Shown: positions 3,146 to 24,623 of the stretch, piece by piece
Layout: every line of letters begins with the position of its first letter
Numbering within the stretch: the first letter of the stretch is position 1
Virus record (IMG/VR): IMGVR_UViG_3300032524_000097
Span: 1-27,384 of that record
Direction: 5' to 3' (one strand)
Length of the DNA stretch: 27,384 nt
DNA from: a virus
Position numbers and translations under genes: made by a program
Notes under the pieces: model-generated
What the model saw: the letters and a program-made list of their open reading frames with translations, nothing else
The model's database searches: none
Told to the model about the DNA's origin: nothing

Positions 3146-4800
3146 TAGAGCGGCAACTCCTCGAATACCGATGACCGTAGCGTCGAGAGCGACAGCGACA
3201 GCCGCCGATCGTGCGCGCTCAATGCGCCAGTGTGGAACCACGATTCCGGCAACGCCTCGATCTGAACCAGGAACTCGCGCGAATACCGTACCGCTACCTG
3301 CGCCTGTCCAATTTCGCCGATGGTCGCGTTGGGCGACGGGACCGCCAGGGCAATACCACTGGGTCGAGGCATGTAATCAGCGCCCGCCGTCAGGGTCGTT
3401 GGTGGGCGCACGTAGAGAGCCGGGTCCGTCCCGCGTGAATCCAGCACTGCATACGTGATGGCGATCGGGTCGTCCTGAAAGTCGAACACGTTCACCCCAA
3501 GCGTGCCCATTGAGGACGCCTGGGTATCGCGATAGTCGAAGCCGGAGTTTCCGTAGGCCGCGAGGTTCTTCAACGTGAGCTTTGACCCGCTACCGCGCTG
3601 GGTCTGCCGTGTGCGGAACAGCAACTCTAGCGGTAGGTTCGCGACAGAGTCATCGCGGAGCGCGTCGAGTAGGTTCGTCCCTCGGAAATCCAGCACGGTT
3701 GGGTGAACGCCACTACGTGGGACGGTTTTCACCCGCCGCCACACGGTTGTATTGTTGTCCCACGCCCAAACGTCGAACCCAGATTTGCCCACGCCGGTTG
3801 ACCGCACCTCGGACACCGCATCGAACGACACCGTTACCGCTGTATCCCATATCCCGACGTTCGCATGACTCGTGGGCAAACTGAGACGGCAATACCCATA
3901 CATGGAGTCATTCGAGGTCGTGAACGATGACCCGACAGACGATCCCACGTTCGCGAACTCCGTCGCGCCCCACGAGGCCGTCCCGGTAACGCTGAAATCC
4001 GTCCCGCTCGGTAAGAGCGAATGCATGAAGGTCTCGGCGAATACTCGCCCTGCCGTGAAGTGCGTCCCGAGGTTCGCCCACGTAACGCTCCCTTTCGCGA
4101 ACGTCGGAAATACCTCTTGGTTGTCCGGGACTTCGCCATCATCTAGCCGTAGCGCCTCCGAGCGGTAGAAAAACTGCTGGAGCCGGTCGTAGCTCGCGCC
4201 GTCTAGCGTGGACCATGAGAGGTTGTGCGTGTAGTGCCGTTGCAACACGTCCACCACCCGACGGCCGGAGAGCGTCGCGTGCGTCGCCTTGATCGCGGTC
4301 ACGTTGCGCGTGATCTGATCCGGGTCCATCAGCAAGACGTTCTCGTTGAGCGCCGCCTCGTTTACCAGCAGCTCACCGTCGATGTTGTTCCCCTGACAGA
4401 TGCGGGTCTTTACGCTCGTCGTCCCGGAGGGAACCGTAACAGTGACGGCGGCCCGCTTCCAATCGTTATAGGTCGTCGAGAAGGCCGAGGACGCGAAATT
4501 CGTCGATCCAATCACCGTATCGGCCTGGTCCAACACACTGAGGTTGATCGTCTGCGAGGAGTCCGCCGTCTTGTAGAGCATGTCGGCCCGCACCGGGAGC
4601 ATCGACCCGACCAGGGTAATGGCGGGCGACAACGCGCCTACCAGCGTCGAGGCCGAGATAATGCGCAACGCGCTTTGCGCCGTGATCGTCGTGGCATTGG
4701 CATTGATCGACGATCCCGCCTCCGCCGCCCAATCCTCGTTGCTCGCTACGAAGTTCTGCCGACCGCTCACCGTCGGGAATAGCTTGATCCCGTGACTCAT
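3145..4800 (-). CDS. Tail-tip structural protein (distal-tail candidate) with carbohydrate-binding-like domains
   Basis: A 551-residue beta-rich protein directly after the tape measure, in the position of the distal tail protein. Residues about 20-155 have a jelly-roll, carbohydrate-binding-module pattern (starting NFVASNEDW and ending in AALNEN). Residues 160-230 include a MDPDQITRNVTAIKATHATLSG segment and HYTHNLSWSTLDGASYDRLQQFF, which resembles tail-tip ring proteins. A second beta-sandwich follows (about 260-400). It may link the tail tube to the hub and bind host glycans. No catalytic motif is visible. Precise family is not recognised. Confidence 0.65.
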   Translation of the reverse strand: MSHGIKLFPTVSGRQNFVASNEDWAAEAGSSINANATTITAQSALRIISASTLVGALSPAITLVGSMLPVRADMLYKTADSSQTINLSVLDQADTVIGSTNFASSAFSTTYNDWKRAAVTVTVPSGTTSVKTRICQGNNIDGELLVNEAALNENVLLMDPDQITRNVTAIKATHATLSGRRVVDVLQRHYTHNLSWSTLDGASYDRLQQFFYRSEALRLDDGEVPDNQEVFPTFAKGSVTWANLGTHFTAGRVFAETFMHSLLPSGTDFSVTGTASWGATEFANVGSSVGSSFTTSNDSMYGYCRLSLPTSHANVGIWDTAVTVSFDAVSEVRSTGVGKSGFDVWAWDNNTTVWRRVKTVPRSGVHPTVLDFRGTNLLDALRDDSVANLPLELLFRTRQTQRGSGSKLTLKNLAAYGNSGFDYRDTQASSMGTLGVNVFDFQDDPIAITYAVLDSRGTDPALYVRPPTTLTAGADYMPRPSGIALAVPSPNATIGEIGQAQVAVRYSREFLVQIEALPESWFHTGALSAHDRRLSLSLSTLRSSVFEELPL

Positions 4801-7800
4801 GCGAATAGCCCTTCTTGGCGCCCAATATCCGCCATCGTGCGAACCAGTGTCCTCAACGATTCCTCACTCGATATGAGCGTGTCGACGTTGACGTTCAGGG
4901 TCACCGCCGCCTGGCGCGCCTGCGCGTCCGATCCCGTGATTTGCCCCAACAGTCGCGCGTTGGTGTTCCCGTCCGTTGTCAGGTTGGACAGATCGGCGCT
5001 CGATAATCCAGCATCGGCGGCGAGACTGTTGAACTGACTTCCGAGCGTAGCTAACTCCCGCATCGTGATCTCATCCGCCTCGTCGATCATCCCCTCGCCC
5101 GTTTCGTCCAGGATGTTCTCGAACCGCACGGCCGCCGCGCCCTTGAGGAACTGTGAAAAGAGGTCTTTGGCGCGGAGCTGCTTGTCCCTAACCGTGGACG
5201 CCTGACTCTGCTGACTCTTCTCGTAGTGATCCGCCTGCGACTGATTCAGCGCGGCGTCCGCCGCTGCATTCTGTGCGCTGACTATGGCGGCCTCTTGCTG
5301 CGGTCGGAACGCTATCACTGCTTGCGCGGCGGCGTTCGGACCCGATTGAGCGAATATCGGCAAATACACATCTAGCTCGGCCTGGGTAAGGTCAGGGAAC
5401 GTATCGCGCGCCATCGCCTCCGCGTTGGTCATTGTTGCGAGAACGCCGTCAGAGCCTTGCACAACGCGGAGCATCCCACGCGCTATTTCCGACCAAAACT
5501 CGGGCAATCCTATCACCGACGCCGTAAGTAGCCCCTCCTCCATTAAGCGCAACGCGAGCGCAGTCGGCTGGATGCGGTGCGCGGAGCCCTCGTGAAAGAT
5601 GCGATTCGCCGTCTCGACGTATGCCGTCAGATCACCGTTGCGCGTCGCGCCAGCCGCGAACGACACGCTGAGCGCGTATCTCCACGACGACCGCTTGTGC
5701 GCCAACACCAACACGCGCATCGTGCGGCTGTCTGCCGCCGAAATCCGCTCACCGTTCGGGTTGAACATCCGCTGAACATCATTCGGTAACGAGGACCAGG
5801 GTATTGTCTTCCCGGTCGCGCGCCAATCGTTCCCCTCCGCAGCGAGCGCGGCCACAACCAGCGCAGCCCATACCCCGACCCCGACAATAGCCACCGTGGG
5901 AAGAGCGCCAAGGGCAGCCGCCCCGGCCCTCGCCGCGCCGGTCCCTCCACCCGCACCTGCCCCCGCACCTGCTCCCGAACCTGCTCCCGCGCCCGTGCCC
6001 TTGGCCGCCTGGCCAAGCCCGAACGCCTGAGTTGCCATCGCCCCTAACTGCGCACCAATCGGCGTTAGGAACTCCGACGCGAACGCAGACGACATATCGG
6101 ACAGCGCGTTTCGTAAGGTCGTCTTCAGTCCATCTGTAAAGAGGGTCCACGTCCCTTTGAAGGTCTCTTGCCCCGTGACTATCCCTGCGAACGCCTCACC
6201 GAACAGATTAGGGATTGCCGTCTCAAACGCGCTCCCTAGCACGCCCTCGACCGCAGCCTGTAACTTCCCGACTTCCGTAGTCGCCTCCCTCGCGGCTTTC
6301 GGGACACGTGCGAGCACATCCTCGAATGTATCGTCGCCCGGCTCGACGTGCCGGTTCTGCATGTATTTTTCAGCGTTCGCGACAAGGTGGTCAGTGAGGT
6401 CGATGAGGTTCTGCTTCTGAATGGCGTCGTCCTCTTGAAACCTCATCTGCCCTACCGTGTCCATCCCGAGTTGGATAATCGCCCGCGATAACTCCCCCTC
6501 TTTGTCAACTAGATCGCGCGCAGATACCCACGCGCGCTCATGAGACATCTTAATGCCATCGCCGCCAGCTAGATGGTTTTCGTAGGCGGTCGCGAGAGGG
6601 CCGAACGCAAGCCGCTGCTCGTCCATGTTCGCCTTCACATCGAGCATGTGCTGGCCAAGGTCGCCCGTGGCAATAGATGCGCTGTATAGGTCGGGCTCTA
6701 GCTCCGCTAGACGCGAGCGATGCGTTCCGATCTCGGTGTCTAGTTTCAACATCGCTGTGCGCGCTAAGTCCTGCTCTATCTTGAACAGTTCCGTGGACAG
6801 TTTGGCTCCATCCACACTGGTGACTTGCTCACCCCATGCAACGCCTAACCTCCCGAGGGTCTCTCGGAACTCCGACTCCGGCCCGGTAGGCGACGCCATA
6901 TCCTTCAGTATCTTCTTCCGAAAGTCGAGCGCCTCCGTAGCGGCTTCCACGTCTTTCTGTGACACCCTAACAGGCCGCTCGGCTTCGGGCGGGATGTCCG
7001 TCTTGTCTCCGAATGCCTCATCGACAAGAATCCCCATTGCAGTGCTGAAATCGAGAACGGCGTCCTTCGCGTCCTTCGTGCGACTGTAGAACTGCGCCAG
7101 CCCGAGGTTATTGTTCTCGTCGTTGAGCGGCTCTAACTTCGTGGACAGCGTCCCGAGATACTCTCCGAGTTCTTTCGCACCCACTACTAGGGCCGCCCCG
7201 GTCCCAATGACTAGCGCCGCAGCGCCGAGCGCGATCGCGAACCCACCAAGTAGCCCGCCCTCGATGCCCAACGCGATCCCGGTGGCATTTACCAACGGGA
7301 GCAACGCCAGCCCCATATTCGTCATCCCGGCTGCCAACGCACCGACCCCGAGAGCCAAAGCGCTGCCGACGCCAACTTCAACAATCGCCTTCTTTGTCGC
7401 ATCGGGGAGCCCGTTAAACCAGTTCGTGATAGCGGTGGCCTGCTCTGCCCATTCCGTTAGTTTCGGAAGTAACACTTCGCCTAGGGAAATCGCCAGCGTT
7501 TCAACCGATCCCTTGAATTGCTCAAGCCCGCCCTTGAGACCCTTCATCTTACCCGCCGCCACATCCGCCGCTGTGGTGCCTTCGATCTGTTCGCGAAGTT
7601 TTCTGACTCCTTCGGCGCCCGTCTTTGCCGCTGCCATCGCCGCTCGGAACGCATCTGTCCCAAATGCCTGCTTGAGAAGATAGATGCGCTCCGACTCGGT
7701 CAAGTCTTCTATGGCAGTCTGAAGTGTCCCCGCGATACTCTCAAAACCAACGATGCTGCCCTGCGCGTCGATGAACTTGTTACGGCCATCGTCGGAGATG

Positions 7801-8564
7801 ATCCCAAGCGTCTCCATCGCCGTCGTCGCGTCCTTCGTCGAAGGCATTAGATTGATGAACATGGTCTTGAGAGACGTCCCGGCGTCAGCCCCCTTGAGAC
7901 CGTTTTCCGCGAGCGCGCCCAAGGCGAGCGCCAGATCTGTAAATTCGAGACCTGCGGTCGCGGCCGCCCCACCACCTTGGGACATCGCAGCAGCGAACTG
8001 ATCAACATTCGTGGTAGTAGCGTTCGCAATCCCCGCGATGTTGTTGACCACACCCTCCAGGGCTTCCGCCCCGAGATCAAACATGGACATAGCATCGGCC
8101 ACGACTTGCGCCGCGCGCGGAAGGTCTATTTCGCCAGCAGAGGCTAGGTCGATAGTAGACAAGGCCGCGCCTGCCATGATCTCCTGAACCTCAGCCCCGC
8201 CTTTTGATAGCTCAGTCATCGCAAGCGCAGCCTGCCCCGCCGAGAACACGGTATCGGCGCCGAGCTTCTTCGCGAGGTCGGCGAGGCCCTGCACTTCGGT
8301 CTCAGTAGCGCCCGAGATCACGCCGAGCTTGTTAATTTCCGACTCGAATTCCAATGCCGCTTTCGTTATCCCGCCGAGCCCAACCGCTGCGCCAGCGAAC
8401 GCTACACCCAGGCCGACCGCCATAGTGGCCGACGCACGCTTGATGTTGCCGAACCGATTGTCGATGTCGCGCTCGGTCTGCCCGAGGGTGGCGTTAAAGC
8501 CCTCCGTCTTGAGACCGAGTTCCACGAAGAGGCTACCGAGACTCAGTGCGTTGGAGGCCGCCAT
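4797..8564 (-). CDS. Tape measure protein
   Basis: A 1255-residue protein, the longest gene here, directly after the chaperones. Residues about 70-300 carry the TP901-type tape measure core (EINKLGVISGATETEVQGLADLAKKLG, VFSAGQAALAMTELSKGG, QFAAAMSQGGGAAATAGLEF). Hydrophobic Gly/Ala-rich segments follow at about 390-465, then long helical charged stretches, a Gly/Ala/Thr repeat run (about residues 845-880) and another hydrophobic segment (VAIVGVGVWAALVVAALAA). The protein spans the tail lumen and sets its length. At the usual scaling near 1.5 angstrom per residue the tail would be about 190 nm, an estimate only. No muralytic domain is recognised. The stop overlaps the next start (ATGA). Confidence 0.93.
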   Translation of the reverse strand: MAASNALSLGSLFVELGLKTEGFNATLGQTERDIDNRFGNIKRASATMAVGLGVAFAGAAVGLGGITKAALEFESEINKLGVISGATETEVQGLADLAKKLGADTVFSAGQAALAMTELSKGGAEVQEIMAGAALSTIDLASAGEIDLPRAAQVVADAMSMFDLGAEALEGVVNNIAGIANATTTNVDQFAAAMSQGGGAAATAGLEFTDLALALGALAENGLKGADAGTSLKTMFINLMPSTKDATTAMETLGIISDDGRNKFIDAQGSIVGFESIAGTLQTAIEDLTESERIYLLKQAFGTDAFRAAMAAAKTGAEGVRKLREQIEGTTAADVAAGKMKGLKGGLEQFKGSVETLAISLGEVLLPKLTEWAEQATAITNWFNGLPDATKKAIVEVGVGSALALGVGALAAGMTNMGLALLPLVNATGIALGIEGGLLGGFAIALGAAALVIGTGAALVVGAKELGEYLGTLSTKLEPLNDENNNLGLAQFYSRTKDAKDAVLDFSTAMGILVDEAFGDKTDIPPEAERPVRVSQKDVEAATEALDFRKKILKDMASPTGPESEFRETLGRLGVAWGEQVTSVDGAKLSTELFKIEQDLARTAMLKLDTEIGTHRSRLAELEPDLYSASIATGDLGQHMLDVKANMDEQRLAFGPLATAYENHLAGGDGIKMSHERAWVSARDLVDKEGELSRAIIQLGMDTVGQMRFQEDDAIQKQNLIDLTDHLVANAEKYMQNRHVEPGDDTFEDVLARVPKAAREATTEVGKLQAAVEGVLGSAFETAIPNLFGEAFAGIVTGQETFKGTWTLFTDGLKTTLRNALSDMSSAFASEFLTPIGAQLGAMATQAFGLGQAAKGTGAGAGSGAGAGAGAGGGTGAARAGAAALGALPTVAIVGVGVWAALVVAALAAEGNDWRATGKTIPWSSLPNDVQRMFNPNGERISAADSRTMRVLVLAHKRSSWRYALSVSFAAGATRNGDLTAYVETANRIFHEGSAHRIQPTALALRLMEEGLLTASVIGLPEFWSEIARGMLRVVQGSDGVLATMTNAEAMARDTFPDLTQAELDVYLPIFAQSGPNAAAQAVIAFRPQQEAAIVSAQNAAADAALNQSQADHYEKSQQSQASTVRDKQLRAKDLFSQFLKGAAAVRFENILDETGEGMIDEADEITMRELATLGSQFNSLAADAGLSSADLSNLTTDGNTNARLLGQITGSDAQARQAAVTLNVNVDTLISSEESLRTLVRTMADIGRQEGLFA

Positions 8565-10968: not shown

Positions 10969-11365
10969 AGCGATGTTCCTCCGCTGCGCGCGCACGGCGC
11001 ACTATGGCCGCGCCGTATGGTCCTTGCGGCTGACCTAGACGCGTCGACGAGAAGTGGCTGTAGTCCTTCATAGGAACTATGATGCCATCGGCGTTCACCA
11101 TCAGTGACCCCGCCCAGGTCACGCCGGCCCAATCTTGCCGATATGCCTCGCGCCTCTCCGGGGTAGCTGGGGGAAGGGAGACCTCCCCACTGGACGAGAA
11201 AGGCCCGTCCGCGCGGTTCGATAAGTCGGCACTCGCGCCCCACGTATAGGGCGCGTCCTCCACAGTCTTAGGACGCCGTCGCACGGGAATGGCAGATGCC
11301 CCGCGAGCGAAAGCCGCCACCAGGAACGTTCCGAGAGAGGTTTTCAGAAAGTCGCGCCTATCCAT
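10961..11365 (-). CDS. Hypothetical protein with twin-arginine (Tat) signal
   Basis: A 134-residue protein. The N-terminus carries the Tat consensus RRDFLK at residues 3-8, then a moderately hydrophobic stretch (LGTFLVAAFA, 11-20), then RGASA ending with an AxA site near residue 25. The Arg at 21 fits the Sec-avoidance charge of Tat signals. The mature part (about 109 residues) is Gly/Ser/Arg-rich and unrecognised. It would be exported folded across the inner membrane if the host has a Tat system. The ATG overlaps the upstream stop by one base (TGATG). Its location among connector genes is unexpected for an exported protein. A structural protein with a chance RR motif is the alternative. Confidence 0.65.
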   Translation of the reverse strand: MDRRDFLKTSLGTFLVAAFARGASAIPVRRRPKTVEDAPYTWGASADLSNRADGPFSSSGEVSLPPATPERREAYRQDWAGVTWAGSLMVNADGIIVPMKDYSHFSSTRLGQPQGPYGAAIVRRARAAEEHRYG

Positions 11366-11709: not shown

Positions 11710-11718
11710 CGCTAGGCC
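11703..11718. repeat. 16-bp junction repeat, copy 2
   Basis: The sequence ACGCCATCGCTAGGCC occurs here and at 13072-13087, exactly the same and in the same orientation. On the minus strand it reads GGCCTAGCGATGGCGT and holds the stop codon of the upstream gene (TAG) and the ATG GCG start of the downstream gene. The two copies bracket the endolysin and methyltransferase genes. Confidence 0.75.
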
Positions 11719-12467: not shown

Positions 12468-13078
12468 TCGGCACCCCATAGCTTGGACTGGAAATGCACC
12501 CGCTCGATGAACGAGGTCCAATAGCCTGACCACTCGATCCCGATATCGGTCGCGATAGCGCCAAGCTGATCCCACACGGCGTCGTCGTTCCACGCGAGCT
12601 TTCCGTCGATGATAGCCACGCAGTCGAACGCAAGCCCGACATTGTGCGCCGACATCCCCGGCAAAGCATTTGTGACGACGCGCGCGCCCATCTGCGGACC
12701 AACGCTCTCAATCATCGCCGCCTGCCAATGCCAGAGACGCGCCGCGAGCGCAGAGGGCGGGGCGGGGCGCGCTTCCCCCTCGAGCGGTTCACGTAGCGCG
12801 GCCAGGAAGTTCACCAGACGCGCGGCCGCGCGAGCGTCGTGGGCATGGACCGCTTCGGGGATCGTGACGAGTGCTTGCGAGCGGTCCCTTAGCGTGTCCA
12901 CGAAGCTCCGAATTGTACTCCCCGAGCGGCCTTGCCGCCAGAGTCGCGCTTGCTCCTCGGGGGAGCGCTTCGTGCAGTAGACCAACACCTCGATGCCGTC
13001 GCGCCTGGCAGCATCCACGAAGTCGCGCGCCTGCGAACAAAAGGGCTGCTGAAGTGCTGATAGAATTCGAGACGCCAT
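12464..13078 (-). CDS. Endolysin, M15 (VanY-like) peptidase
   Basis: A 204-residue peptidoglycan hydrolase of the M15 metallopeptidase type, predicted to cut peptide cross-links or stems in the host wall at lysis. VLVYCTKRSPEEQARLWRQG (31-50) is the start of the fold. GMSAHNVGLAFD (141-152) carries zinc ligands His145 and Asp152, IEWSGYW (181-187) the catalytic Glu182, and ERVHFQ (192-197) the last ligand His195. Between residues 50 and 136 there is an insertion of roughly 80 residues, longer than in most relatives. No signal peptide is present. The gene lies among head-tail joining genes, not in a lysis cassette. Only the 42-aa membrane protein near the terminase could serve as a holin. Confidence 0.85.
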   Translation of the reverse strand: MASRILSALQQPFCSQARDFVDAARRDGIEVLVYCTKRSPEEQARLWRQGRSGSTIRSFVDTLRDRSQALVTIPEAVHAHDARAAARLVNFLAALREPLEGEARPAPPSALAARLWHWQAAMIESVGPQMGARVVTNALPGMSAHNVGLAFDCVAIIDGKLAWNDDAVWDQLGAIATDIGIEWSGYWTSFIERVHFQSKLWGAE

Positions 13079-13087
13079 CGCTAGGCC
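13072..13087. repeat. 16-bp junction repeat, copy 1
   Basis: This is an identical copy of the repeat at 11703-11718. It spans the stop of the adaptor candidate and the start of the endolysin. Recombination between the copies would remove the endolysin and methyltransferase genes cleanly and put the adaptor stop directly before the stopper start. Confidence 0.75.
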
Positions 13088-13677
13088 CTCTCAATATACG
13101 GACGCCTACGATTCAGATACAGCCCACGCGCCGCGTAGAGATCCACCTTCAACTTGATCGTCCGGCTCACCTGCCCGCGCGTGCGCTGCGTGTCGTATTC
13201 GCGCCCGGTGTCGGGCGTCTCTAGCAGCAGGTCCGCCGCCGCGAGCCACGGGTTGAAGACGGTCCCGCTGACGTAGAGTTCCTTCCCCGGCGCGGTCGAG
13301 AACGCCCACGACCCTGCCACAGCGTTGACCGCCGATGGAGACTGAGCAGCGCCCGACTCGTCAGCCTGGTCGCGGATCACCCATCCCGTGTCGAAGTGGC
13401 CAACACGATAGAACGCGGAGAAGTCGGGGCCGCTCCAGCTAGCGGGCGGGGAGTCGCGCACCCCCGCCAACGCTTCGCGCATCGTTCCCTCGCTCCTGCC
13501 CTTCGCCTCGTAGATGTGGTAGTCGAGATCGTGGCGAAGCGGCGTCCAGTCGATGCGGACGGAGTGCTGATCCAACGCGTCGACAATGGGCGCCGTAGAT
13601 GACCACGTCGTGGCCGCAACATCGGACAGGAGGTTTCGCGTAAAGGCAACGATGGAATCTAGCTCAGTCCTTGCCAT
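13081..13677 (-). CDS. Probable head-tail adaptor/connector protein
   Basis: A 198-residue protein that I cannot place in a family with certainty. The central part is rich in Trp/Phe/Asp and predicted beta (FYRVGHFDTGWVIRD, GKELYVSGTVFNPWLAAADLL). The end is basic (RTIKLKVDLYAARGLYLNRR), a feature of ring proteins that contact neighbours. The position between capsid and stopper genes supports an adaptor role. The ATG at 13677 lies inside the 3' end of the glycosyltransferase gene (14-nt overlap), with GGGGGGA 6 nt upstream. Another ATG six bases earlier is too close to that site. Confidence 0.5.
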   Translation of the reverse strand: MARTELDSIVAFTRNLLSDVAATTWSSTAPIVDALDQHSVRIDWTPLRHDLDYHIYEAKGRSEGTMREALAGVRDSPPASWSGPDFSAFYRVGHFDTGWVIRDQADESGAAQSPSAVNAVAGSWAFSTAPGKELYVSGTVFNPWLAAADLLLETPDTGREYDTQRTRGQVSRTIKLKVDLYAARGLYLNRRRPYIERA

Positions 13678-16600
13678 GTTCATCCCCCCCACGCGCGTCG
13701 CCCACGACAGGCGGCGTAATAACATGGACACGACCCGGAACCGGGGTGAATACCATGCCAGCCCCGCCGCCCTTCGGCCGATTATGCGTCGCAATGGCCG
13801 CTACTCGTGCCGCGTCGTCAGCATCATCCACGGTCTTAGGCGCGTCGTCGCCCCAAGTGATCTCCGGTCTGACACCGTGGGCCGCGATACGTTTCAGCAC
13901 GTCGGCGACGTAGATCGCGTGGTGTTCGGACGTAGCGAACCGATACCGTGTCCCGACCATCTCCTCGGTCTGCGGGTCGAACTCCGCAACGAGGAAGTCG
14001 CTTCCCATGTCCAGCAGCCGCAGCGTGTCTTGGTAGACCTCGAATGCGGGCTCCCAATAGACGCCGCTCGGGTCGAAGAAGCTCTCCGACAGAATCGCCA
14101 GCCCGCGAAGCAGGACGTTACGGTTCCTCTCGACGCGCGGGTGCGGATTCCCGGTCTTGCGCCGGATGTCCTCGATCTCCCACTTCGCGTAGTTCGCGTA
14201 TTCGCGGGCTTCCAGAAGCGAGCCTAGAACGCGGTCGGGGTTCTTCTCGCGATCCCACATAAGGAGCGGGATGTTCCGACCCTCGCACTTGACGCGCCGA
14301 AGCCGCTCGTTGATGTAGCCGAGGTGGATGATGTCGCCGCCCACGACCTGTAACGCCGGTTGAATCAACTCATTCATCGACGGCTGGAAATGTTCGTGTA
14401 TCACGCCCTGGCAGGTGTAGGTCATCCCGGACTGCTTTCCACCCGGCACACGGCGGAACATGCGGATCGGGCGGTCGAAGCGATACGGTGCGTCTTTCAT
14501 CACATGGCACTGCTTGAGACTCAGCCCGTTGAACGGCGAGTCGGTGAGATAGCGCGCCACGACCTCGGGCATCTCCAACGCCTCGTCCGTGTCGATCCAG
14601 AGAATCCAGTCCGCCGTCGTGTGCTTGATGGACTCGTTACGCGCCCAGCCGAAGTCACCAGGGGGCGGCGCGCCAGGGGGAGCGTCGGGACATGTGCCGA
14701 TGTCGAACACCCCACCGCCCCCCGTCGTATACGGAAGCGCGATCTCCTTGGTCGCGTCTGTCGAGCCAGTGTCCGCAACCCATATCTCGTCGGCCAACGT
14801 GTCCACCGACTTAAGGGCGCGGACGATGTCGTTCTCGTTGTCTTTCGCAATCATGCACACTGCGACGGTATCGCGTGGGCGCATCCGCCGAATCTTGCGC
14901 TCGATGTCCGGCGTCCCGATGGCCGTATCGTCGCGTTGCCATCTGAATAGGAAATGCCCATACAGCGTCGAGCGCAACGTCTCGCCCATCCTGGCGTGAA
15001 CATCGTCGAATCCCGGCTTGTGGCCGACCATCGCCTCGATGTCGCGCTTCTCGAAACAGAACCGATGACCGCGGACTTCCTTCGTCCAGTCAAGCGAATT
15101 GCGATGCATCAACTCGGCGAACGCGCCCTGCGGCACAGTCAGGAAGACAAACCCGCCCGGCTCGTCAGTAATAGGCGGGGTAGCAAGCTGCTCAAGCTCC
15201 GCGATGAACGTCTCCGGGTATTCGTAGTGCTCCGCGATCTCGCCCGCGACCACGAGGTCATAGACCCCCTTCTCTACGTCCTCCATTGATCCGCAAAGTT
15301 GGAAGTAGCGATCCGCGTGCGCGCCTTCCTCGAAGTCTTTATCGATGAACTCCTTGCCGGCATCGAGTAGCTGCTGCGAGTAGTCCACGTCGAGGACGGT
15401 CGCACAGGGGAAGGTCTTGAGAAGCACGGCCGCGAGAGACCCGTTCCCAGCTGCGTAATTGACGATGCGAAGCTCGCGCGTCTCCCAATCGGGGTAGAGG
15501 TTCCGCAGTGCGTAGTTAACCACGCGAAAACGCGGCGAGTTCGCCAACTCATGGCTCGGCGGGACGGCGTTATCGAAGAAGGAGTCCGGGTTGTCGTTCG
15601 ATCCCTCGTCACGTTCGAGGATGGCGGCCTTCGCGTCATCGTCGTCGTAGTTCCGCGCAACGAGTTCGCGCATGGAGCGGAGGTCGTCCTGCATCGCGAG
15701 ACGCTTGAAAACCCCGCCCGGTCGGGCCTTGAATCGCGCCGCGAACATGTCGAGTAGCTTCGACTCCCACTGCTCGGCGATCTTCGCCATGTCGTAGGTA
15801 GTTGCCCACGATAGCCCGTGCGATTGTGCGACCCGGTATGCAAGCGAGGTTTCGCCGCCCGGCTCCGTCTCCAGTAGGGTCATCGCGGCGTTGACGAACT
15901 CGGCTTGATACTCCCCCGTTGACGAGTCCCCGTCGATGAGTCTCCCCGCTTGGGGGTGGAGCGTCTCCGGTAGGGCGCCGATATTGGTCGCGATAAGCGG
16001 TGTCTGGCACAGCTGCGCCTCGGTCGCCGCAACGCATCCTGTCTCGGCGAAGCCAGGGATACCGGGATAGAGCATCAGCGCAGCTCCCGCGATCGCCTTA
16101 TACAGGTCGTCCTTCCCGAGTTCGCCCAACCACTCGACGCCGTCCTCGGCCTCGACGAGTTCGTCCGCGCGCTTGCAGACCGACGCGACGCCAGGGCTCT
16201 GCTCATACATGGAATGGTAGCGGCAGATGCCGAGCGTCAGCTCTGGGTCGCGCTGGCGCATCTTGCGGAAGACTTCGAGCAACGGCGAGCCGTCACCGTA
16301 GACAAGCGCGCGCTCCGGTCGAGATATGTGAATCAGGCGCTTCGGGTCACGCTCCACCCCCTCGATGGCGGCGAAGACTCGGTCACAGTCGACGGGATTG
16401 ACCGTCGTCCACGTCAGGTCAGAGATGTCGGGGAGCGCGCGGACGTATTGCTCGCGCTGGTAGTCGGAGACAAAGGCGTGCGCGTCCGTCTGCCACGCGC
16501 TGGCGAGGTATTGCCCCGGCGTCTTGAGTAGGTCTTCGTTCCACAGCAGCCGCAGCTTCACGTCAATGAGGTCGGCCCAGTTCATCACCGGGAAATGCCG

Positions 16601-16915
16601 CAACGATACGAACACCTCCGGTTGCCGCGCCCGGATGATGGACGACACCATGTCGTTGTCGTTCGGGAAGTAGTAGACGCCGTCGACGCACTTCATCTGC
16701 GCCTGGTCGATGGTCGTGTCTTCGGGAAGGTCGAACTTCGTGTAGATCACGACCGTGTTCCCACGACGTGCCAACCCCTTGGCCAGCATGATCATCGCGG
16801 ACTCCGAGCCGCCCAAGGACTTGCGGAGTTCGATGGTGTCCCCCGAGAAGGGGACCGAGTCACAGTAGAAGTGGATCTCGATAGGGGCGTTACGCCCGCG
16901 CTTTTCCGTGGTCAT
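13664..16915 (-). CDS. Trifunctional GT4 glycosyltransferase - SAM methyltransferase - GT2 glycosyltransferase
   Basis: A 1083-residue protein with three enzyme modules. Residues 10-395 are a GT4-type (GT-B) glycosyltransferase, with LGGSESAMIMLAKGLARRG at 34-52 in the acceptor domain and the E-x7-E motif at Glu291/Glu299 in YPGIPGFAETGCVAATEA for the nucleotide-sugar donor. Residues about 480-660 are a Rossmann methyltransferase, with motif I NYAAGNGSLA at 486-495, an acidic residue at VLDVDYS (about 509-513), and YDLVVAGEIAEHY at 552-564. Residues about 683-900 are a GT2-type (GT-A) glycosyltransferase, with MIAKDNENDIVRALKSV, DTGSTD at 715-720 and the DxD Asp775-Thr-Asp777. The C-terminal 180 residues are unrecognised. 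Key residues are present in each module, so all could be active. The substrate is unknown: a virion glycan, or a host or phage surface polymer. Confidence 0.88.
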   Translation of the reverse strand: MTTEKRGRNAPIEIHFYCDSVPFSGDTIELRKSLGGSESAMIMLAKGLARRGNTVVIYTKFDLPEDTTIDQAQMKCVDGVYYFPNDNDMVSSIIRARQPEVFVSLRHFPVMNWADLIDVKLRLLWNEDLLKTPGQYLASAWQTDAHAFVSDYQREQYVRALPDISDLTWTTVNPVDCDRVFAAIEGVERDPKRLIHISRPERALVYGDGSPLLEVFRKMRQRDPELTLGICRYHSMYEQSPGVASVCKRADELVEAEDGVEWLGELGKDDLYKAIAGAALMLYPGIPGFAETGCVAATEAQLCQTPLIATNIGALPETLHPQAGRLIDGDSSTGEYQAEFVNAAMTLLETEPGGETSLAYRVAQSHGLSWATTYDMAKIAEQWESKLLDMFAARFKARPGGVFKRLAMQDDLRSMRELVARNYDDDDAKAAILERDEGSNDNPDSFFDNAVPPSHELANSPRFRVVNYALRNLYPDWETRELRIVNYAAGNGSLAAVLLKTFPCATVLDVDYSQQLLDAGKEFIDKDFEEGAHADRYFQLCGSMEDVEKGVYDLVVAGEIAEHYEYPETFIAELEQLATPPITDEPGGFVFLTVPQGAFAELMHRNSLDWTKEVRGHRFCFEKRDIEAMVGHKPGFDDVHARMGETLRSTLYGHFLFRWQRDDTAIGTPDIERKIRRMRPRDTVAVCMIAKDNENDIVRALKSVDTLADEIWVADTGSTDATKEIALPYTTGGGGVFDIGTCPDAPPGAPPPGDFGWARNESIKHTTADWILWIDTDEALEMPEVVARYLTDSPFNGLSLKQCHVMKDAPYRFDRPIRMFRRVPGGKQSGMTYTCQGVIHEHFQPSMNELIQPALQVVGGDIIHLGYINERLRRVKCEGRNIPLLMWDREKNPDRVLGSLLEAREYANYAKWEIEDIRRKTGNPHPRVERNRNVLLRGLAILSESFFDPSGVYWEPAFEVYQDTLRLLDMGSDFLVAEFDPQTEEMVGTRYRFATSEHHAIYVADVLKRIAAHGVRPEITWGDDAPKTVDDADDAARVAAIATHNRPKGGGAGMVFTPVPGRVHVITPPVVGDARGGDEHGKD

Positions 16916-17126
16916 CGGCAGTGGGTTCCTTCGGTCGACGGCGGGGAACTAAACGCTCCGCCTTGAGGGTGTCCCTTAGCTCATCGATGACCGCGAACGG
17001 GTTTGGGGAATTCGCGAGCTCGTGAGCCGTCTGACGTAGTTCAGCAGCGAGCCGAGGGCTGAGAGGAGAATCCCCCCTCAGCCCTTGCAGTTGTTCGAGG
17101 AAGAGCTGCCACGCGTCCGGGGTCAT
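16890..17126 (-). CDS. 78-aa hypothetical protein
   Basis: A small, probably all-helical charged protein (AWQLFLEQLQGLRG, LAAELRQTAHELANS, AVIDELRDTL) with a basic end RRRPKEP. The ATG has GAGGGAGACGGAT upstream. Its 3' end overlaps the start of the glycosyltransferase gene by 26 nt. The function is unknown. The phrase HELANSPN recurs in a similar form (HELANSPR) in the following glycosyltransferase, probably by chance. Confidence 0.6.
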   Translation of the reverse strand: MTPDAWQLFLEQLQGLRGDSPLSPRLAAELRQTAHELANSPNPFAVIDELRDTLKAERLVPRRRPKEPTADDHGKARA

Positions 17127-17146: not shown

Positions 17147-17521
17147 TTACGCAGTGAATCCCGACATCGTGAGGTCGCCGTTAAACGACGTCACGTTGAT
17201 CGAGCCGGTCGCGGCGGTCGCGTCCGTCACCTTCACGGGGTTCGTGAAGATAATGTCGCGCGAGTTGTGCACCTGGTGGCGGTTGATCGTCCCGTCCAGG
17301 TTCAGCATGAGGATGTCGATGTGCGCGGCGTCGAACGACGCGTGCACGGCGGTGATGTAGTGGGCCTTCCCGGTGACAGCCGCCTTCGATACGGACGCGA
17401 TAGCGCCCGCCACAGCCGTCGCCGTAACAGTCCACTCCGACGCCACGGGGACGTTGACCAGCGCGGACGCGTCCTGATCGCTAGTCCGTTGCGTTGATAC
17501 GCGTTCTTCGGTCAGAGACAT
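17147..17521 (-). CDS. Probable capsid accessory (decoration-type) protein
   Basis: A 124-residue protein directly after the major capsid gene, with a strong Shine-Dalgarno (GAGAGGAGCGG). After a polar N-terminal 22 residues the sequence is almost all predicted beta strand (Ala/Val/Thr/Ile alternation, ITAVHASFDAAHIDILMLNL, closing INVTSFNGDLTMSGFTA). Position and beta-rich composition fit a capsid decoration or head-stabilising protein. I know no specific family for it, so this is an inference from context. Confidence 0.55.
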   Translation of the reverse strand: MSLTEERVSTQRTSDQDASALVNVPVASEWTVTATAVAGAIASVSKAAVTGKAHYITAVHASFDAAHIDILMLNLDGTINRHQVHNSRDIIFTNPVKVTDATAATGSINVTSFNGDLTMSGFTA

Positions 17522-17545: not shown

Positions 17546-18691
17546 TTAGCCGGTGATGTAGCCGCGCACCATCGTCGCTGAGCGACGGACTTCGGTAGTG
17601 TATTCGCCGACCAATTCGCCTTGCTTGGCGTCCTTGGTCTCGGCGTAGTTTTTGAGTTGGAACGACCGACCGTTGAGCGGCAGAACCGCAATGTCGTCGG
17701 ATCGTCCGATGATGAAGCCGCGCGCGTCCATCTGACGCGTGTTGATCACACGAAGTGGCGTGTCGCTCAGGCCGCTGTTGTATTCCGTGACCTTAGTGCC
17801 GATCCCGTGATCGCTCCGGGCCTGGACAATCGCCGCGCCCGGCAGACGGTCGAACCCGAGCTTGACGCGAGGACCGCAGACGATGAAGTCGTACGACGAC
17901 CCACCGGCCAGGAAGCCCGCGAGGATGGCGTTGTCGATGAACGACTGCGTCAGCGTCACCGCCGTGTGTGTGGATGTGATCCACCGCCAAATACCCTTGA
18001 CGGTTCGGCGAGTCGTCCCATCCCCGATGGTCTCGACAGACGCGCCCATCAACGCCGAGGATTCGAGGTCGCGGATCGCGGTCTCGATGCGGTCAACGGC
18101 CTGGCGGTTATACTCCGAGCCGATCCCGCCCTCCTTGTTGACAGCCTCCATCGTGGCCGAGACCTCAATGGGCTTGGCGTAGTATTGGACGAAGTTCTTC
18201 TTCTGAACACGCACGCTGGAGATGTCGCCCTTGCGATCCTCACCTTCCAGCTTTGCGTTACTGACGAAGCCCAACGTCCCACCCGCTGCTAGCGAGTAGT
18301 TCGTAGTCCCGCCAAAGGCACGCGACACGAGGATCGAGTTGACCCCGACCGCGCTGGTCACGACGAGGTGCTCCTCCGTCGTGTCGAAACCGCCGAGGCG
18401 TAGGATGTCCCCCTCTTGGACGCGGGCTCCCCAGCCGTTGACCTGAATCCCCGTCGCCGCCGTCGCGGAGTTGATAGCGGTCGAGACAGTCAGGGTGAAG
18501 TTAGGCGTGAGCTCATCTTCGAGCCAGATGTGCTCAGTTGAACCCACCGCGACGTTGCCCGCGCGCGCCGGGTCGCCGATGAAGTCGAGGAACGGGGTCG
18601 CCCTCGGTGAGAGAAGAGAGATCGTCGGGGAGACGTCCTTCTGCACCTCTACCGAGAAGGCTGCGTATGTGGCTTTCCCTGAGAATGCCAT
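17546..18691 (-). CDS. Major capsid protein (SU10/DUF5309 family)
   Basis: A 381-residue protein matching the SU10-type HK97-fold capsid family. It has SVEVQKDVSPTISLLSP with TPFLDFIG near residues 13-40. A beta-rich insertion follows (about 60-150). The diagnostic long-helix region KNFVQYYAKPIEVSATMEAV continues into EYNRQAVDRIETAIRDLESSALMG (about 165-225), and the C-terminal part includes FIVCGPRVKLGF and an ending GEYTTEVRRSATMVRGYITG. No N-terminal delta domain or protease is visible, which fits a separate scaffold. AGGAG lies 10 nt before the ATG. It should form the icosahedral shell. Confidence 0.92.
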   Translation of the reverse strand: MAFSGKATYAAFSVEVQKDVSPTISLLSPRATPFLDFIGDPARAGNVAVGSTEHIWLEDELTPNFTLTVSTAINSATAATGIQVNGWGARVQEGDILRLGGFDTTEEHLVVTSAVGVNSILVSRAFGGTTNYSLAAGGTLGFVSNAKLEGEDRKGDISSVRVQKKNFVQYYAKPIEVSATMEAVNKEGGIGSEYNRQAVDRIETAIRDLESSALMGASVETIGDGTTRRTVKGIWRWITSTHTAVTLTQSFIDNAILAGFLAGGSSYDFIVCGPRVKLGFDRLPGAAIVQARSDHGIGTKVTEYNSGLSDTPLRVINTRQMDARGFIIGRSDDIAVLPLNGRSFQLKNYAETKDAKQGELVGEYTTEVRRSATMVRGYITG

Positions 18692-19932: not shown

Positions 19933-21089
19933 TACGACCCTTCTCGTGCGCGCCGTCGCGGCCTCGGGATGTTCCCCTCGACGGTCGCCGTCTGTAACGC
20001 GTCCTGCCACATGTTGGCCTTGATACCGCCCGCGTGGAATAGCTCGGTTGACAGTTGCCCCGCGTTCGCGGCCATGCGCGCCGTCAGGTGGAGACGTTCG
20101 GAAATAGGGCGCCCCTCAACCCACTGCGAGAGGTCGTTGGGCGCCCACTCACCGCCAGCGCCGATCTTGCCACGTATTCGCGCAGGCAGGCCGTCTTCAT
20201 GGATGACGAGCGCCGGGGGGTTCAGCGGCTGCGGCGGCCGCGGCTTCTCCCAATCATCAACGTCGCGGAGCACGTCTTCGAGCCAGCACATGCAGTTGGG
20301 GTGCGGCTTCGGTGGGAGCGTGCCGGTAGGGTAGATGCCGGGTCCGAGGTCGTATGACGCGTTCCACGCCATCATGTCGCACGCGTCCCACAGCTTATGT
20401 GACGTCGAGAGATTCCACCGCTGGCCCTCGACTATCGACGATGACGCCGCCGAGAGCGCCGAGGCTTCCCAATACGCCGTGTTGATCTCCGTGCGCGCCA
20501 GGCGTTCAGCCTTCGCCCTGACACTCATGCCACCCGCGCCCTTGCCACCGAGAACGTGCTTCTCTAGGTCGAGCCCGAGAGACTTCGCCGACTGCCCACG
20601 CGCGATACCGGCCGCTATCTTCAACTCGATCTTCTGAACCTGATCCGCGGACCAGACACCAGGAGACAGGACCAACGGCGTGCCGGTGACGGATGTGCGC
20701 TGGATGAACTGCTCCAACGCCAGCCGTGGGACGTGCGAAAAGGTCGGGTCGATCCGCACCTTGTTTGCCGTCACGATGCGCGACGTCGCCGACTGGTAGC
20801 TCCCAGGGACATCCTTCTGTGTGTCCTTGATCTCGTCGACGATACTGTCGGCTAGCTCCTCGCCGAGTTCGTTCCAGACCTTCTCCAACGCCCGCATTCT
20901 ACTACGCGCCACGCGCTGCGCCAGTAGCCCGCTTATTTGCCCGTCGTCGAGAATCTTCGCGGTATCCACCCACGCCTTGTGCACGGCGTTTCGCGTCGCC
21001 CCTACCGTCGACAGGGTTCGCCCCAGCGCGCGCATACGGGCATCGAATAAGGCCTCGTGATAAGCGTTCAACCCGCGAGCAGCGCTCAC
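19932..21089 (-). CDS. Minor head protein (Mu gpF / SPP1 gp7-like)
   Basis: A 385-residue protein. Residues 198-206 (ARTEINTAY) and the block from Trp225 to Glu271, with DACDMMAW and the closing KPHPNCMCWLE, are the signature of the Mu-F-like/SPP1 gp7 minor head family. That family sits on the portal and affects DNA ejection. The DxC...HPNC pattern resembles a metal site or a degenerate toxin-like fold seen in the family. The gene follows the portal with a 4-nt overlap, the expected order. The C-terminal 110 residues after the family signature (about 272-385) are an extension that I do not recognise, with a basic end. Confidence 0.85.
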   Translation of the reverse strand: MSAARGLNAYHEALFDARMRALGRTLSTVGATRNAVHKAWVDTAKILDDGQISGLLAQRVARSRMRALEKVWNELGEELADSIVDEIKDTQKDVPGSYQSATSRIVTANKVRIDPTFSHVPRLALEQFIQRTSVTGTPLVLSPGVWSADQVQKIELKIAAGIARGQSAKSLGLDLEKHVLGGKGAGGMSVRAKAERLARTEINTAYWEASALSAASSSIVEGQRWNLSTSHKLWDACDMMAWNASYDLGPGIYPTGTLPPKPHPNCMCWLEDVLRDVDDWEKPRPPQPLNPPALVIHEDGLPARIRGKIGAGGEWAPNDLSQWVEGRPISERLHLTARMAANAGQLSTELFHAGGIKANMWQDALQTATVEGNIPRPRRRAREGS

Positions 21090-22615
21090 ACGTTAGCCCC
21101 CTGGTCCTCATCCTCGACCGCGTCCGCGAAGGGCCTCTCCTCGAGCCCGTCTGCGCCCACGCGCCCGAGCGCTGCGACTTCGTCCTGCGCATTTTGCAGG
21201 TTGTCCTTCAACTCCTGCAAGACGATCGCCGCCGTCGCGGCGTCCATGTCGTCGGTGATGCGCTGCGCCAGGTCGAACAGGTAGGTAGCGAGGAACGTCG
21301 GCGAGGCCGTCCCGTAGACGTCCCGCACATTCACCGCCACCGCCATGTCATCGTTAAGGCTGCGGAGGTTGTAGTTGTCCGGGTAGTCGATCTCTTCGGA
21401 CGCCTTGACATCCATCCCCTGCCACTGGAACCAAAGCGCGGTCGCCGACTGCTCCGCGACTTGGAGGCTGTCCGCGAGTGACGCAAGGACCGCGTTTTGC
21501 TCCTCAAAGTCAACCATCTTGGACACACCCGACTGCGCCGAGTTGATCGCGCCCTCGGCCCGGATGTCCTTCTGGGTCGCGAGCCGGAACAACTCCCACC
21601 GTAGCTGCTGGATATGGGCGAAACACTGGTCAGCGCCGCTCACGTCGGGCGCGATGAACGACGGCGCGTCCCCCTCGGCGGGATACTCAAGGATTGACCC
21701 GTCCTTGAACGGCTGGGCGCCGCCCTCGTCGGTAGACATCTGGGACAGGGTAGAGACCGCGATGGTCAGGATTTGCAGCATGTTCTTGCTTAGAAAGCCG
21801 TCAACCTCGCTGACCTTGTTCGCCAGCATCCGGTTGATTCTCGCGAAGTCGTCCATGAAGCTGACGCCCGCAAGCTCGTTGACATGGTCGTCCTCTTCCG
21901 GCTCCTCGAAGCGCATTATCACGAGCGGCACGACGCCTAGCGGGTGATCCCCCTGGCTCGTGATCTCTCCCTGGTCGGTGACTACCATCCATGACTCGCG
22001 TGTCCAGACGCGCCATTGCATCACGTCCACCGGCTCATCGAGCGGCGTCGGGGCGACGCTCTGGGTCTCCTCGATCCGCACCCATTCAAAGGCCCCGTCA
22101 GCGTCTAGCTTCCAGTCCACGATCTGGCGCGGCGATATGTGGACAAAATACGGCACGATGCCCGCCGCTATCTGGTCGGCCTTCGTCTGGATGTCGACCT
22201 GATCCTGGGGCATGTCCACGAGGACAGCGGACCATCCGTATAGCAGTTGGCGCGATACCACCCCGCCCCAGAAGCGGTTAGCGTCCGCGCCCCGCCGGTT
22301 GACGTCTTTGAGAAACTCGACATACGTCGGCTCAGTCTCGGGACGCGCGATCCCGTCGCCGTTTCGGAAGATGTGGTCGCGATACGTCCGGATGATGGGC
22401 CGGACGTAGTTCGGGTAGACCGCGCGCGACAGGCGCCGCTTGAAGTCGGATTCGGTCTCCCGGGGCTCGAGGCGAAACAGATTCTTCGCGAGGTAGGGCG
22501 CGCCACCCATGTAGGCGGATCGGAGAAAGTCGTATGTGCCACGGAGCCGCTGATACTCCTTGTGGCGCTTCTTCATCCGGTTCGCAATCTGATCCGTCGC
22601 GGTCGTGTGCATCAT
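21086..22615 (-). CDS. Portal protein (DUF4055-like)
   Basis: About 509 residues. The N-terminal part, with a long YLPR/ESD-type segment (FRLEPRETESDFKRRLSRAV) and then YPNYVRPIIRTYRDHIFRN, is characteristic of DUF4055 phage portal proteins. A central wing/stem region and helical C-terminus follow. Twelve copies should form the ring at the capsid vertex through which terminase pumps DNA and to which the connector binds. A GTG at 22645 would add ten residues, but it has no well-spaced Shine-Dalgarno sequence. The ATG at 22615 has GGAGG 8 nt upstream, so I chose it. The stop overlaps the next start as ATGA. Confidence 0.85.
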   Translation of the reverse strand: MMHTTATDQIANRMKKRHKEYQRLRGTYDFLRSAYMGGAPYLAKNLFRLEPRETESDFKRRLSRAVYPNYVRPIIRTYRDHIFRNGDGIARPETEPTYVEFLKDVNRRGADANRFWGGVVSRQLLYGWSAVLVDMPQDQVDIQTKADQIAAGIVPYFVHISPRQIVDWKLDADGAFEWVRIEETQSVAPTPLDEPVDVMQWRVWTRESWMVVTDQGEITSQGDHPLGVVPLVIMRFEEPEEDDHVNELAGVSFMDDFARINRMLANKVSEVDGFLSKNMLQILTIAVSTLSQMSTDEGGAQPFKDGSILEYPAEGDAPSFIAPDVSGADQCFAHIQQLRWELFRLATQKDIRAEGAINSAQSGVSKMVDFEEQNAVLASLADSLQVAEQSATALWFQWQGMDVKASEEIDYPDNYNLRSLNDDMAVAVNVRDVYGTASPTFLATYLFDLAQRITDDMDAATAAIVLQELKDNLQNAQDEVAALGRVGADGLEERPFADAVEDEDQGANV

Positions 22616-22657
22616 CCTAGCGGCCTCCGCTGGTAGTGCCGTCACAGTCGCGGGAAC

Positions 22658-23234: not shown

Positions 23235-24623
23235 CTACAGTCCCTCCACGTTGCGCGAGCGATGTCGCCCTGTCCGAAGCTTCTCGACCAGCATCACCAT
23301 GTAACGCATGGCGTCCATCCCGTGGTTGTTCACGTCAAGCGGTAGCTCATCCGGACTGCGATTATCGCGCGGACCGGGATAGGTGTAGACGCCGGCCTCT
23401 TCAATGGTAGACGTCGGGAGACCCGCCGCCAACAGTCGCCGATCAAGGTGGACCGTGCAGTCCCGGTGGAAGACCATCCGCGGCTTGCCTGTCGTCGGGT
23501 CGGGCCGCATACGAACGGAGACCGCGCTGATTCCCTCGCGAATCGTCTTCTCCGCCGGCGCGCTCGCGATCTGGTGCTTCACCTCGAGCTCCGCACGGTT
23601 CTCCGCGTCGTGGTCCGCGACCGTCCCGACGAGGCGCTTGTCGTGCTTCGACAGTTCGTTGATCTGCGGCCCGAGGTCCGATACCAGTTGGTGACTCATG
23701 TAAATCTCCCGGTAGAGATGGAGCACGTCGTCGGGCGAGAGCGCCCACCACTGGCATACGAAGGGGTTATTGAACCCGAAGTCAATCGAGCGGAACTTCA
23801 TCCAGTCGTCAGGGATCGGGAACGCGTCTATCACATGGATCGTAGGACGGAACTCCATGTAAACCAGGCCTTCATGTGCGACAGACCACGAACCCTCCAG
23901 CAGCATCAACCGCTCACGCTCGGGCAGGGCTTCCAGGCGCGCCATGTAACCGGGGTCGGCTTCCATCAGCGAGGGGTTGTCGTCAACCCGCGCGGGGATG
24001 AACTGGCGAGAGCGGGCGTTCTTGGTCGTCTCCCCAACCTCGACATCATGCGCGCCGTCACGGACGAACCAGCGCATCGTATACGGCGCTAGCCGGTCGA
24101 TGAATCGGGACTTAACCCACGAGTGCCCTGCGCCGCCTGGGTTCGTCGCGCTGCGCACGCGGTTGAAGACCCCGGCCGTGTTCCGGTTCCGTGAGAGCAT
24201 GTATTCGTATTGGTATTGCGTGAACGACGTGAGTTCATCGAAGCCGATAAACGCGAACGCAGCCGACTGGTAGCGTCGGACGTCCAACTCTCGCTGAATG
24301 TGGGCGAACATGACGCGCGCGCCGCTAGGAAACACCCACGTATGCTGCGCTTCGAGATACCGCCCCTTATCGCCGTAGAGGTCGCGGGCGCGGTCAATCA
24401 GCGACATGTTCAACTCAGGGAACGTGCGGCGAAACAGGATGCCGCGATACCCCGGATGGTCGATGTCGCGAACGGCCTCGACGAGCAACGCGTCGGACTT
24501 CCCACCACCGGCCGCACCACCGTAGAGCACCTCATCCGCGTTGGATTCGAGGAACGCCCACTGCGGGCCAGGATGCGGCGCCCATTCGTCGAGCGTCGTC
24601 GCGATGGTGGGTGCGTCGATCAT
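23235..24623 (-). CDS. terL: Terminase large subunit (DNA packaging ATPase/nuclease)
   Basis: A 462-residue protein with the two-domain terminase layout. ATPase: Walker A GGAAGGGKS at 35-43, Walker B FAFIGFDE at 123-130 ending in the catalytic Glu, and the coupling motif SATNPGG at 158-164. Nuclease (RNase H fold): SIDFGFNN around Asp281, VADHDAEN around Asp337/Asp339, and NNHGMDAMRY with Asp437 as candidate metal ligands. Length is normal for the family. It pumps DNA into the procapsid through the portal and cuts the concatemer. An in-frame stop lies four codons upstream of the ATG, so this start is firm. The packaging type (cos or pac) cannot be told from the sequence. Confidence 0.95.
   Translation of the reverse strand: MIDAPTIATTLDEWAPHPGPQWAFLESNADEVLYGGAAGGGKSDALLVEAVRDIDHPGYRGILFRRTFPELNMSLIDRARDLYGDKGRYLEAQHTWVFPSGARVMFAHIQRELDVRRYQSAAFAFIGFDELTSFTQYQYEYMLSRNRNTAGVFNRVRSATNPGGAGHSWVKSRFIDRLAPYTMRWFVRDGAHDVEVGETTKNARSRQFIPARVDDNPSLMEADPGYMARLEALPERERLMLLEGSWSVAHEGLVYMEFRPTIHVIDAFPIPDDWMKFRSIDFGFNNPFVCQWWALSPDDVLHLYREIYMSHQLVSDLGPQINELSKHDKRLVGTVADHDAENRAELEVKHQIASAPAEKTIREGISAVSVRMRPDPTTGKPRMVFHRDCTVHLDRRLLAAGLPTSTIEEAGVYTYPGPRDNRSPDELPLDVNNHGMDAMRYMVMLVEKLRTGRHRSRNVEGL

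Follow-up and report, generated by a model that had tools for sequence, protein, structure and literature searches.

A phage-encoded GT4-methyltransferase-GT2 fusion protein, conserved behind capsid genes, that probably glycosylates virion proteins

Why would a phage keep two glycosyltransferases and a methyltransferase in a single polypeptide among its morphogenesis genes, and what might such an enzyme modify? The question is raised by a locus in IMG/VR virus record IMGVR_UViG_3300032524_000097, of which positions 1 to 27,384 (27,384 nucleotides, here called the window) were analysed. An earlier note on this DNA had described a GT4, a methyltransferase, and a GT2 domain joined in one protein, and this fusion is borne out: an open 1083-aa frame runs without interruption through 13664-16915 of the minus strand (frame 1 of the plus strand contains stops), and the three domains are recovered by Pfam. 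The protein is organized as follows:

13664..16915, minus strand: tri-domain GT4-MT-GT2 protein, 1083 aa (ORF, Pfam, AlphaFold2)
15701..16915, minus strand: GT4 (GT-B) domain, residues 1-405, with E291-x7-E299 (Pfam; Foldseek to MshA, HepE, BshA, and PimA; conservation)
14921..15595, minus strand: SAM-dependent methyltransferase domain, residues 441-665, with E559xxE562H563 conserved and N486 replacing D in motif I
14201..14902, minus strand: GT2 (GT-A) domain of the GmaR/SunS/ThuS type, residues 672-905, with DTGSTD, DxDE, GVIHE, and HLGY
13871..14200, minus strand: helical C-terminal region past GT2, residues 906-1015 (AlphaFold2 secondary structure)
13667..13870, minus strand: predicted disordered tail, residues 1016-1083 (pLDDT < 50)

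Pfam matches to Glycos_transf_1 (residues 212-329, 1e-8, 35.3 bits versus a cut-off of 26.4), Methyltransf_23/11 (residues 476-640, 3e-6; Methyltransf_11 27.9 versus 21.2, Methyltransf_23 27.5 versus 27), and Glycos_transf_2 (residues 686-780, 2e-9) all lie over their respective curated cut-offs. The AlphaFold2 model of the whole protein has a pLDDT of 87.8 and a pTM of 0.89. Its GT4 domain has a GT-B fold that matches HepE, BshA, and PimA in Foldseek with target-normalised TM values of 0.65-0.73. In a profile search, the GT2 domain matches GmaR (4e-43), SunS (5e-29), and ThuS (5e-27) over the whole domain (profile 639-843); these closest solved relatives are all protein or peptide glycosyltransferases. 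AlphaFold2 also predicts C-terminal helices at 870-968, where Pfam gives no TPR match. A search of BFVD yielded no full-length three-domain structural match, and the top multi-domain matches there superpose badly (query TM 0.29). The protein has no transmembrane-like segment (top 19-residue mean hydropathy, 1.4), and a membrane-embedded, serotype-conversion (gtr-type) glycosyltransferase is therefore rated low.

The motifs had also been called intact in each domain. This holds for GT4 (E291-x7-E299) and GT2 (DTGSTD at 715-720 and D775-T-D777-E). In an alignment of 67 full-length relatives, residues R199, R202, K268, E299, F755, R759, N760, D775, D777, E778, H840, E841, and R880 are invariant, and position 291 is E in 66 and D in one; R199, R202, and K268 are basic donor-site residues of the GT4 domain. 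However, it does not hold for the methyltransferase: its SAM motif I, VNYAAGNG, carries Asn486 at a position that is Asp in 65/67 relatives, although G490 and G492 are retained. Consequently, methyl transfer by this copy is less certain. The domain could be a non-catalytic spacer in an enzyme that adds sugars only, given that relatives L196 and L199 depart from the ExxEH motif too and that GT4-GT2 proteins lacking a methyltransferase occur in L093 (Armatimonadota, prophage-like) and L295. We consider this unlikely, but worth keeping in mind: D511, E559, E562, H563, and H617 are kept here, the domain is modelled at high confidence, and the nearest relative, L172, has D in motif I.

The genes surrounding the fusion, all on the same strand, are those of a morphogenesis region:

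23235..24623, minus strand: terminase large subunit
21086..22645, minus strand: portal protein (phrog_145)
17546..18691, minus strand: major capsid protein, SU10_MCP / phrog_1328 (profile matches)
17147..17521, minus strand: gene for a 124-aa protein containing Ser/Thr, located after the capsid gene and ahead of the fusion
16890..17126, minus strand: small, 78-aa gene immediately before the fusion
13081..13683, minus strand: gene next after the fusion, 200 aa from its conserved start, of a family that keeps this position in related phages
4797..8564, minus strand: tail tape measure protein

Two small genes thus separate the fusion from the SU10-type capsid gene upstream. The 124-aa protein is a possible decoration protein and acceptor; at the position of the 78-aa gene, relatives L173-L175 also have small genes (61-86 aa). 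The placement of the fusion between capsid and connector genes, as originally proposed, stands on the capsid side. On the other side, the product of 13081-13683 has no PHROG or PDB match and no profile match to the adaptor of the phrog_1005 lineage, and its AlphaFold2 model reaches a pLDDT of 32; a connector assignment thus found no support in sequence or structure. In the phrog_1005 lineage, the gene next after the fusion encodes a Mu-gp36-type head-tail adaptor.

The same three-domain order is present in other phages. Alignment-based scans were required, since pattern scans with single proteins (P0001, capsid, portal) gave almost no matches. The family recovered, clustered at 95% aa, numbers 71 distinct members, every one GT4-MT-GT2 in order and from an uncultured viral contig. 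Among 50,697 annotated phage records there is no three-domain fusion and no record that covers at least 80% of the protein; every matching PHROG or NCBIfam model covers just a part of it, and a single scan of bacterial genomes gave no three-domain ORF. Matches to Listeria and Enterococcus "phage" or plasmid sequences were rejected as members because they cover the GT2 part only, and the Listeria gene has flagellar genes as neighbors, which fits GmaR. Three deltaproteobacterial MAGs with GT4 genes (one also with a GT2-related gene) were set aside, being without phage context by HMMs. The fusion gene is under purifying selection, with dN/dS of 0.09-0.27 in close pairs.

The family is closely linked to capsid genes. 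Among members with at least 4 kb of upstream sequence, 43/49 are preceded within 4 kb by a capsid gene in the same orientation, the median gap being 622 bp. These capsids belong to two families, phrog_1005 and SU10, and in the tree the two capsid lineages split at a single branch with full support. When sampling was seeded with the phrog_1005 capsid, the fusion was present in 34 of 38 new contigs having at least 4 kb downstream; the association is weaker for the SU10 capsid, which returned it in 2 of 7. Control GT2 loci without the fusion have a phrog_1005-type capsid in 0/52 cases and an SU10 type in 2/52, and both of the latter have other GT2-GT4 genes near the capsid. Enzyme and capsid distances are correlated (r = 0.85, n=35; r = 0.90, n=18), but those of the enzyme correlate similarly well with adaptor and tail-gene distances (r about 0.86), as phages move as modules, and so the capsid is not singled out. 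Synteny with the capsid gene could reflect late expression only.

What, then, does the enzyme modify? Our preferred reading, to which we give a probability of roughly 0.7, is that it is a soluble phage enzyme that attaches a short, methylated glycan to proteins of the phage's own particle, most likely to the capsid or a capsid-associated protein. With a nucleotide sugar as donor, the GT2 domain would attach the initial sugar to a residue of a virion protein, the GT4 domain would add the second, and the methyltransferase would cap the glycan by methylation. Location within the late operon would allow enzyme and substrate to be produced together. We infer the protein acceptor, the order of these steps, the identities of the sugars, the virion protein hit, and methyl transfer by the N486 copy. 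A virion target is well supported by sequence comparison: the slot beside two capsid families is conserved, the enzyme co-diverges with the capsid, carriage is near-constant in the phrog_1005 kin sampled, and the GT2 is of a protein-glycosyltransferase type.

The same observations bear on the other targets. The earlier note favored the virion over superinfection exclusion, and we concur. Surface glycans are commonly built by GT4 and GT2 enzymes, and other phage glycosyltransferases have been interpreted as modifying them (PMC8008677); late in infection, such an activity could exclude superinfecting phage or protect released virions from binding debris. Such a role is improbable, however, for a soluble protein without a membrane segment whose GT2 is of the protein-acceptor (GmaR/SunS) type and whose gene, unlike scattered accessory genes, holds a fixed head-module slot in nearly all sampled phrog_1005 kin. 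A tail or fibre protein as the main target is the strongest competitor, though still a minority prospect. In a T4-like group (L033, L038, and kin), whose target may be a different one, the fusion lies near tail-sheath and RCC1-like genes, together with genes for a TPR protein and a sulfotransferase. In addition, some phages have glycosylated tail tubes (PMC10877033). Yet most members have the capsid upstream and the adaptor downstream as their closest virion genes.

In T4, GT-B enzymes glycosylate modified bases, and modified bases are glycosylated in some other phages as well. A comparable hypermodification of DNA by the fusion is highly implausible, since its GT2 type and conserved capsid slot point to proteins and no DNA-base-hypermodification genes were recognised beside it.

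To our knowledge, phage virion glycosylation is known in few cultured phages. The presence of the same three-part gene after the capsid in dozens of divergent uncultured viruses suggests that they probably place methylated sugars on their own particles. More tentatively, at odds somewhat short of even, whole lineages of uncultured environmental phages would carry a near-obligatory capsid-glycosylation gene, coinherited with the capsid in two families, that starts, extends, and methyl-caps a head glycan. If so, glycan-coated heads would be the rule in these phages, not an oddity of the few cultured examples, and virion glycosylation would become a widespread trait. The fusion gene would then serve as its virome marker and would supply enzymes that make methylated protein glycans with one polypeptide.

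The idea of an undescribed system thus survives for the enzyme family, given the partial models and phage-set coverage, but not for its kind: viruses that encode the glycosylation of their capsids, and multi-domain glycosyltransferase/methyltransferase enzymes, are already known. The closest analogue is PBCV-1 A064R, likewise a single viral polypeptide, whose two glycosyltransferases and one methyltransferase build and cap a capsid-protein glycan (PMC9614988, PMC7826918). However, A064R is a 638-aa protein of a eukaryotic giant virus (a chlorovirus), its domains are GT34-like and of a new family, and it extends an N-glycan without starting one. Its order is GT-GT-MT rather than GT4-MT-GT2, making it an analogue in architecture and not a member. 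The parallel suggests that very different viruses may have arrived at fused enzymes for capsid glycans. GmaR, which adds GlcNAc to flagellin (PMC9638930), shares the DxD, GxxHE, HxGY, and RN motifs with the GT2 domain, as do SunS and ThuS. None of the three has a fused GT4 or methyltransferase (GmaR combines GT2 with TPR, linker, and antirepressor domains), and the acceptors known for them are flagellin or peptides of the glycocin type.

Glycosylation of phage capsids has precedents, cited in PMC11256854 and PMC10877033. The former cites Freeman et al. 2023 for phage-encoded glycosyltransferases and for glycans on the major capsid proteins of mycobacteriophages (Che8, Rita); glycosyltransferase genes are reported near the genome 3' end (Maravista), rather than as a tri-domain gene behind the capsid. 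Closer in layout is ctKR88 (MW202524), in which an SU10-type capsid gene is followed by a small gene (165 aa) and a GT2/GT4 fusion. This protein has the reversed domain order with TPR present (GT2-TPR-GT4), and methyltransferases are separate genes, found with more glycosyltransferase genes after it. The different, GT2-TPR-GT4 architecture also occupies the same post-capsid place in L080 and L081.

The fusion gene is read from the minus strand as one ORF of 1083 codons without interruption (mechanical ORF calling), along which Pfam places Glycos_transf_1, Methyltransf_23/11 and Glycos_transf_2, in that order; PHROGs and NCBIfam models each cover part of the protein only. It sits within the head-tail module of the window, a record of 27,384 bases that is probably a fragment. 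The module runs terminase, portal, SU10-type major capsid protein, two genes of 124 and 78 aa, the fusion, a gene of 200 aa, a VanY-type peptidase and finally the tail genes, including that of the tape measure protein. The fusion and other genes of the window discussed here are:

10961-11365, minus strand: tail-module ORF opening with MDRRDFLKTSLGTFLVAAFARGASA, which resembles a twin-arginine signal peptide
11712-12593, minus strand: stand-alone second methyltransferase (Methyltransf_23 / DUF268), sharing the operon of the fusion
12464-13078: VanY-type peptidase gene, preceding the second methyltransferase
13664-16915, minus strand: GT4-methyltransferase-GT2 fusion
25796-26245, minus strand: by sequence, apparent staphylococcal-nuclease-type thermonuclease
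26242-27351, minus strand: adenine-specific DNA methyltransferase-like protein, with CcrM-type model matches far under the cut-offs

In tblastn against 50,697 phage records the protein gives only partial matches, and queries from other fusion branches found no phage record at 80% coverage. Scanning viral contigs with a GT2-domain alignment recovered loci with the three domains in one ORF, and the contigs were then rescanned with a full-length alignment, with matches scored by domain HMMs. The rescan gave at least 100 loci, and all 100 listed have the GT4-methyltransferase-GT2 order, mostly in 930-1090 aa. Removal of repeated contigs leaves 82 loci, and clustering at 95% identity leaves at least 71 distinct members, window included, a lower bound since the scans were pattern-based and the count covers the matches listed. 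The closest relative among these members (locus L172) is ~50% identical. A scan of bacterial and archaeal genomes, driven by one GT2 motif and so not proof of absence, found the three-domain ORF in 0/79 loci listed. The almost identical sister contig L002 (IMGVR_UViG_3300033064_001887), which agrees at 100% in the capsid N-terminus and 99% in the portal, stops inside the capsid gene, before the fusion.

The gene occupies a recurrent position. In lineage A, the order is portal, protease, scaffold, phrog_1005 capsid, fusion, Mu-gp36-type adaptor, Neck1 and tail protein; in lineage B, which includes the window, an SU10-type capsid gene is followed by one or more small genes, the fusion, and one of two conserved genes without assigned function. 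A same-strand capsid gene lies upstream in 52 of the 71 members and is inverted in one; another 13 have <4 kb of upstream sequence and no capsid match. Among the 49 with >=4 kb upstream, 43 have the capsid gene within 4 kb. The six exceptions are L033, L191, L199, L209, L217 and L234, of which L199 retains an upstream head-tail adaptor and a downstream tape-measure-like gene. In nine loci (L015, L018, L195, L197 and kin) an HNH endonuclease gene directly precedes the fusion, with the capsid gene on its other side, and a radical SAM protein with a SPASM-like C-terminus is encoded nearby in 11 (L198:6184-6918 and 10 more).

Sampling seeded by capsid alignments alone, with known contigs left out, gave 38 new lineage-A contigs with >=4 kb downstream. 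The fusion is complete in 34 (in 31 <4 kb away on the same strand), partial in three, of which two run off the end of the stretch, and absent from one; SU10-seeded sampling found it in 2/7 new contigs. These figures are rates among near kin, because the capsid alignments were built from fusion-carrying contigs and the 80 best-scoring matches were retained. Of 52 control viral loci without the fusion, taken from the same GT2 scan, none matches the phrog_1005-lineage capsid HMM and two match SU10 capsids. Both encode GT2-TPR-GT4 proteins near the capsid gene, in one case (L081) adjoined by a separate methyltransferase, and phage ctKR88 is arranged similarly; therefore, the post-capsid position holds the same activity set in a second architecture. 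At L295:2140-8178, GT4-GT2 tandem repeats without a methyltransferase follow a phrog_1005-type capsid gene.

One branch of the fusion tree (SH-aLRT 100) separates phrog_1005 carriers from SU10-type and T4-like carriers. Fusion distances, taken pairwise, correlate with capsid distances (r = 0.85, n=35; r = 0.90, n=18) and about equally well with those of adaptor and tail genes; thus, the fusion travels as part of the entire morphogenesis module. Close pairs have dN/dS of 0.09-0.27.

The AlphaFold2 model (pLDDT 87.8, pTM 0.89) has a disordered tail, and a sequence check reveals no apparent membrane segment in the window fusion. Structural matches are MshA, HepE, BshA and PimA for GT4, and SunS and ThuS for GT2. 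By profile, the best solved relatives of GT2 are GmaR (4e-43), SunS (5e-29) and ThuS (5e-27), in alignments that span the whole domain, GxxHE and HxGY motifs included. GmaR transfers GlcNAc to flagellin (PMC9638930), and PDB titles name SunS and ThuS as glycocin S-glycosyltransferases; it is mainly these relatives that suggest a protein acceptor. Across 67 sequences, the motif residues of GT4 and GT2 show little or no variation, and methyltransferase residues E559, E562, H563 and H617 are retained in 65. Residue 486, in SAM motif I, is N in the window and D in 65/67.

As a virion glycosylation enzyme, the fusion would initiate a glycan on a virion protein through GT2, lengthen it through GT4 and cap it through the methyltransferase; the late-module location would supply enzyme and substrate together. 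Companion genes support this mechanism: a cytidylyltransferase gene between capsid and fusion in locus L174, a sulfotransferase and TPR protein alongside T4-like copies, and additional GT4 or methyltransferase genes adjoining some copies. Glycans occur on mycobacteriophage capsids, as cited in PMC11256854, and on phage capsids and tail tubes, as cited in PMC10877033. The nearest analogue is PBCV-1 A064R, whose three domains (GT-GT-methyltransferase) assemble the terminal part of the N-glycan on a capsid protein (PMC9614988, PMC7826918). Domain order and families differ, and the fusion is therefore an analogue of A064R rather than a member. The 11712-12593 product could act as another glycan methyltransferase, standing to the fusion as A061L does to A064R.

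The T4-like carriers (L033/L226-L228, L038, L221, L231, L232, L234 and L239; L228 is on a 372-kb contig) have the fusion near tail-sheath genes, several with sulfotransferase, TPR protein and RCC1-like repeats. A prophage-like region in an Armatimonadota MAG (L093:9827-13930, CP070816.1) encodes a GT4-GT2 fusion without a methyltransferase; genes of adaptor and tail type come next, and the region is a possible hint to the host.
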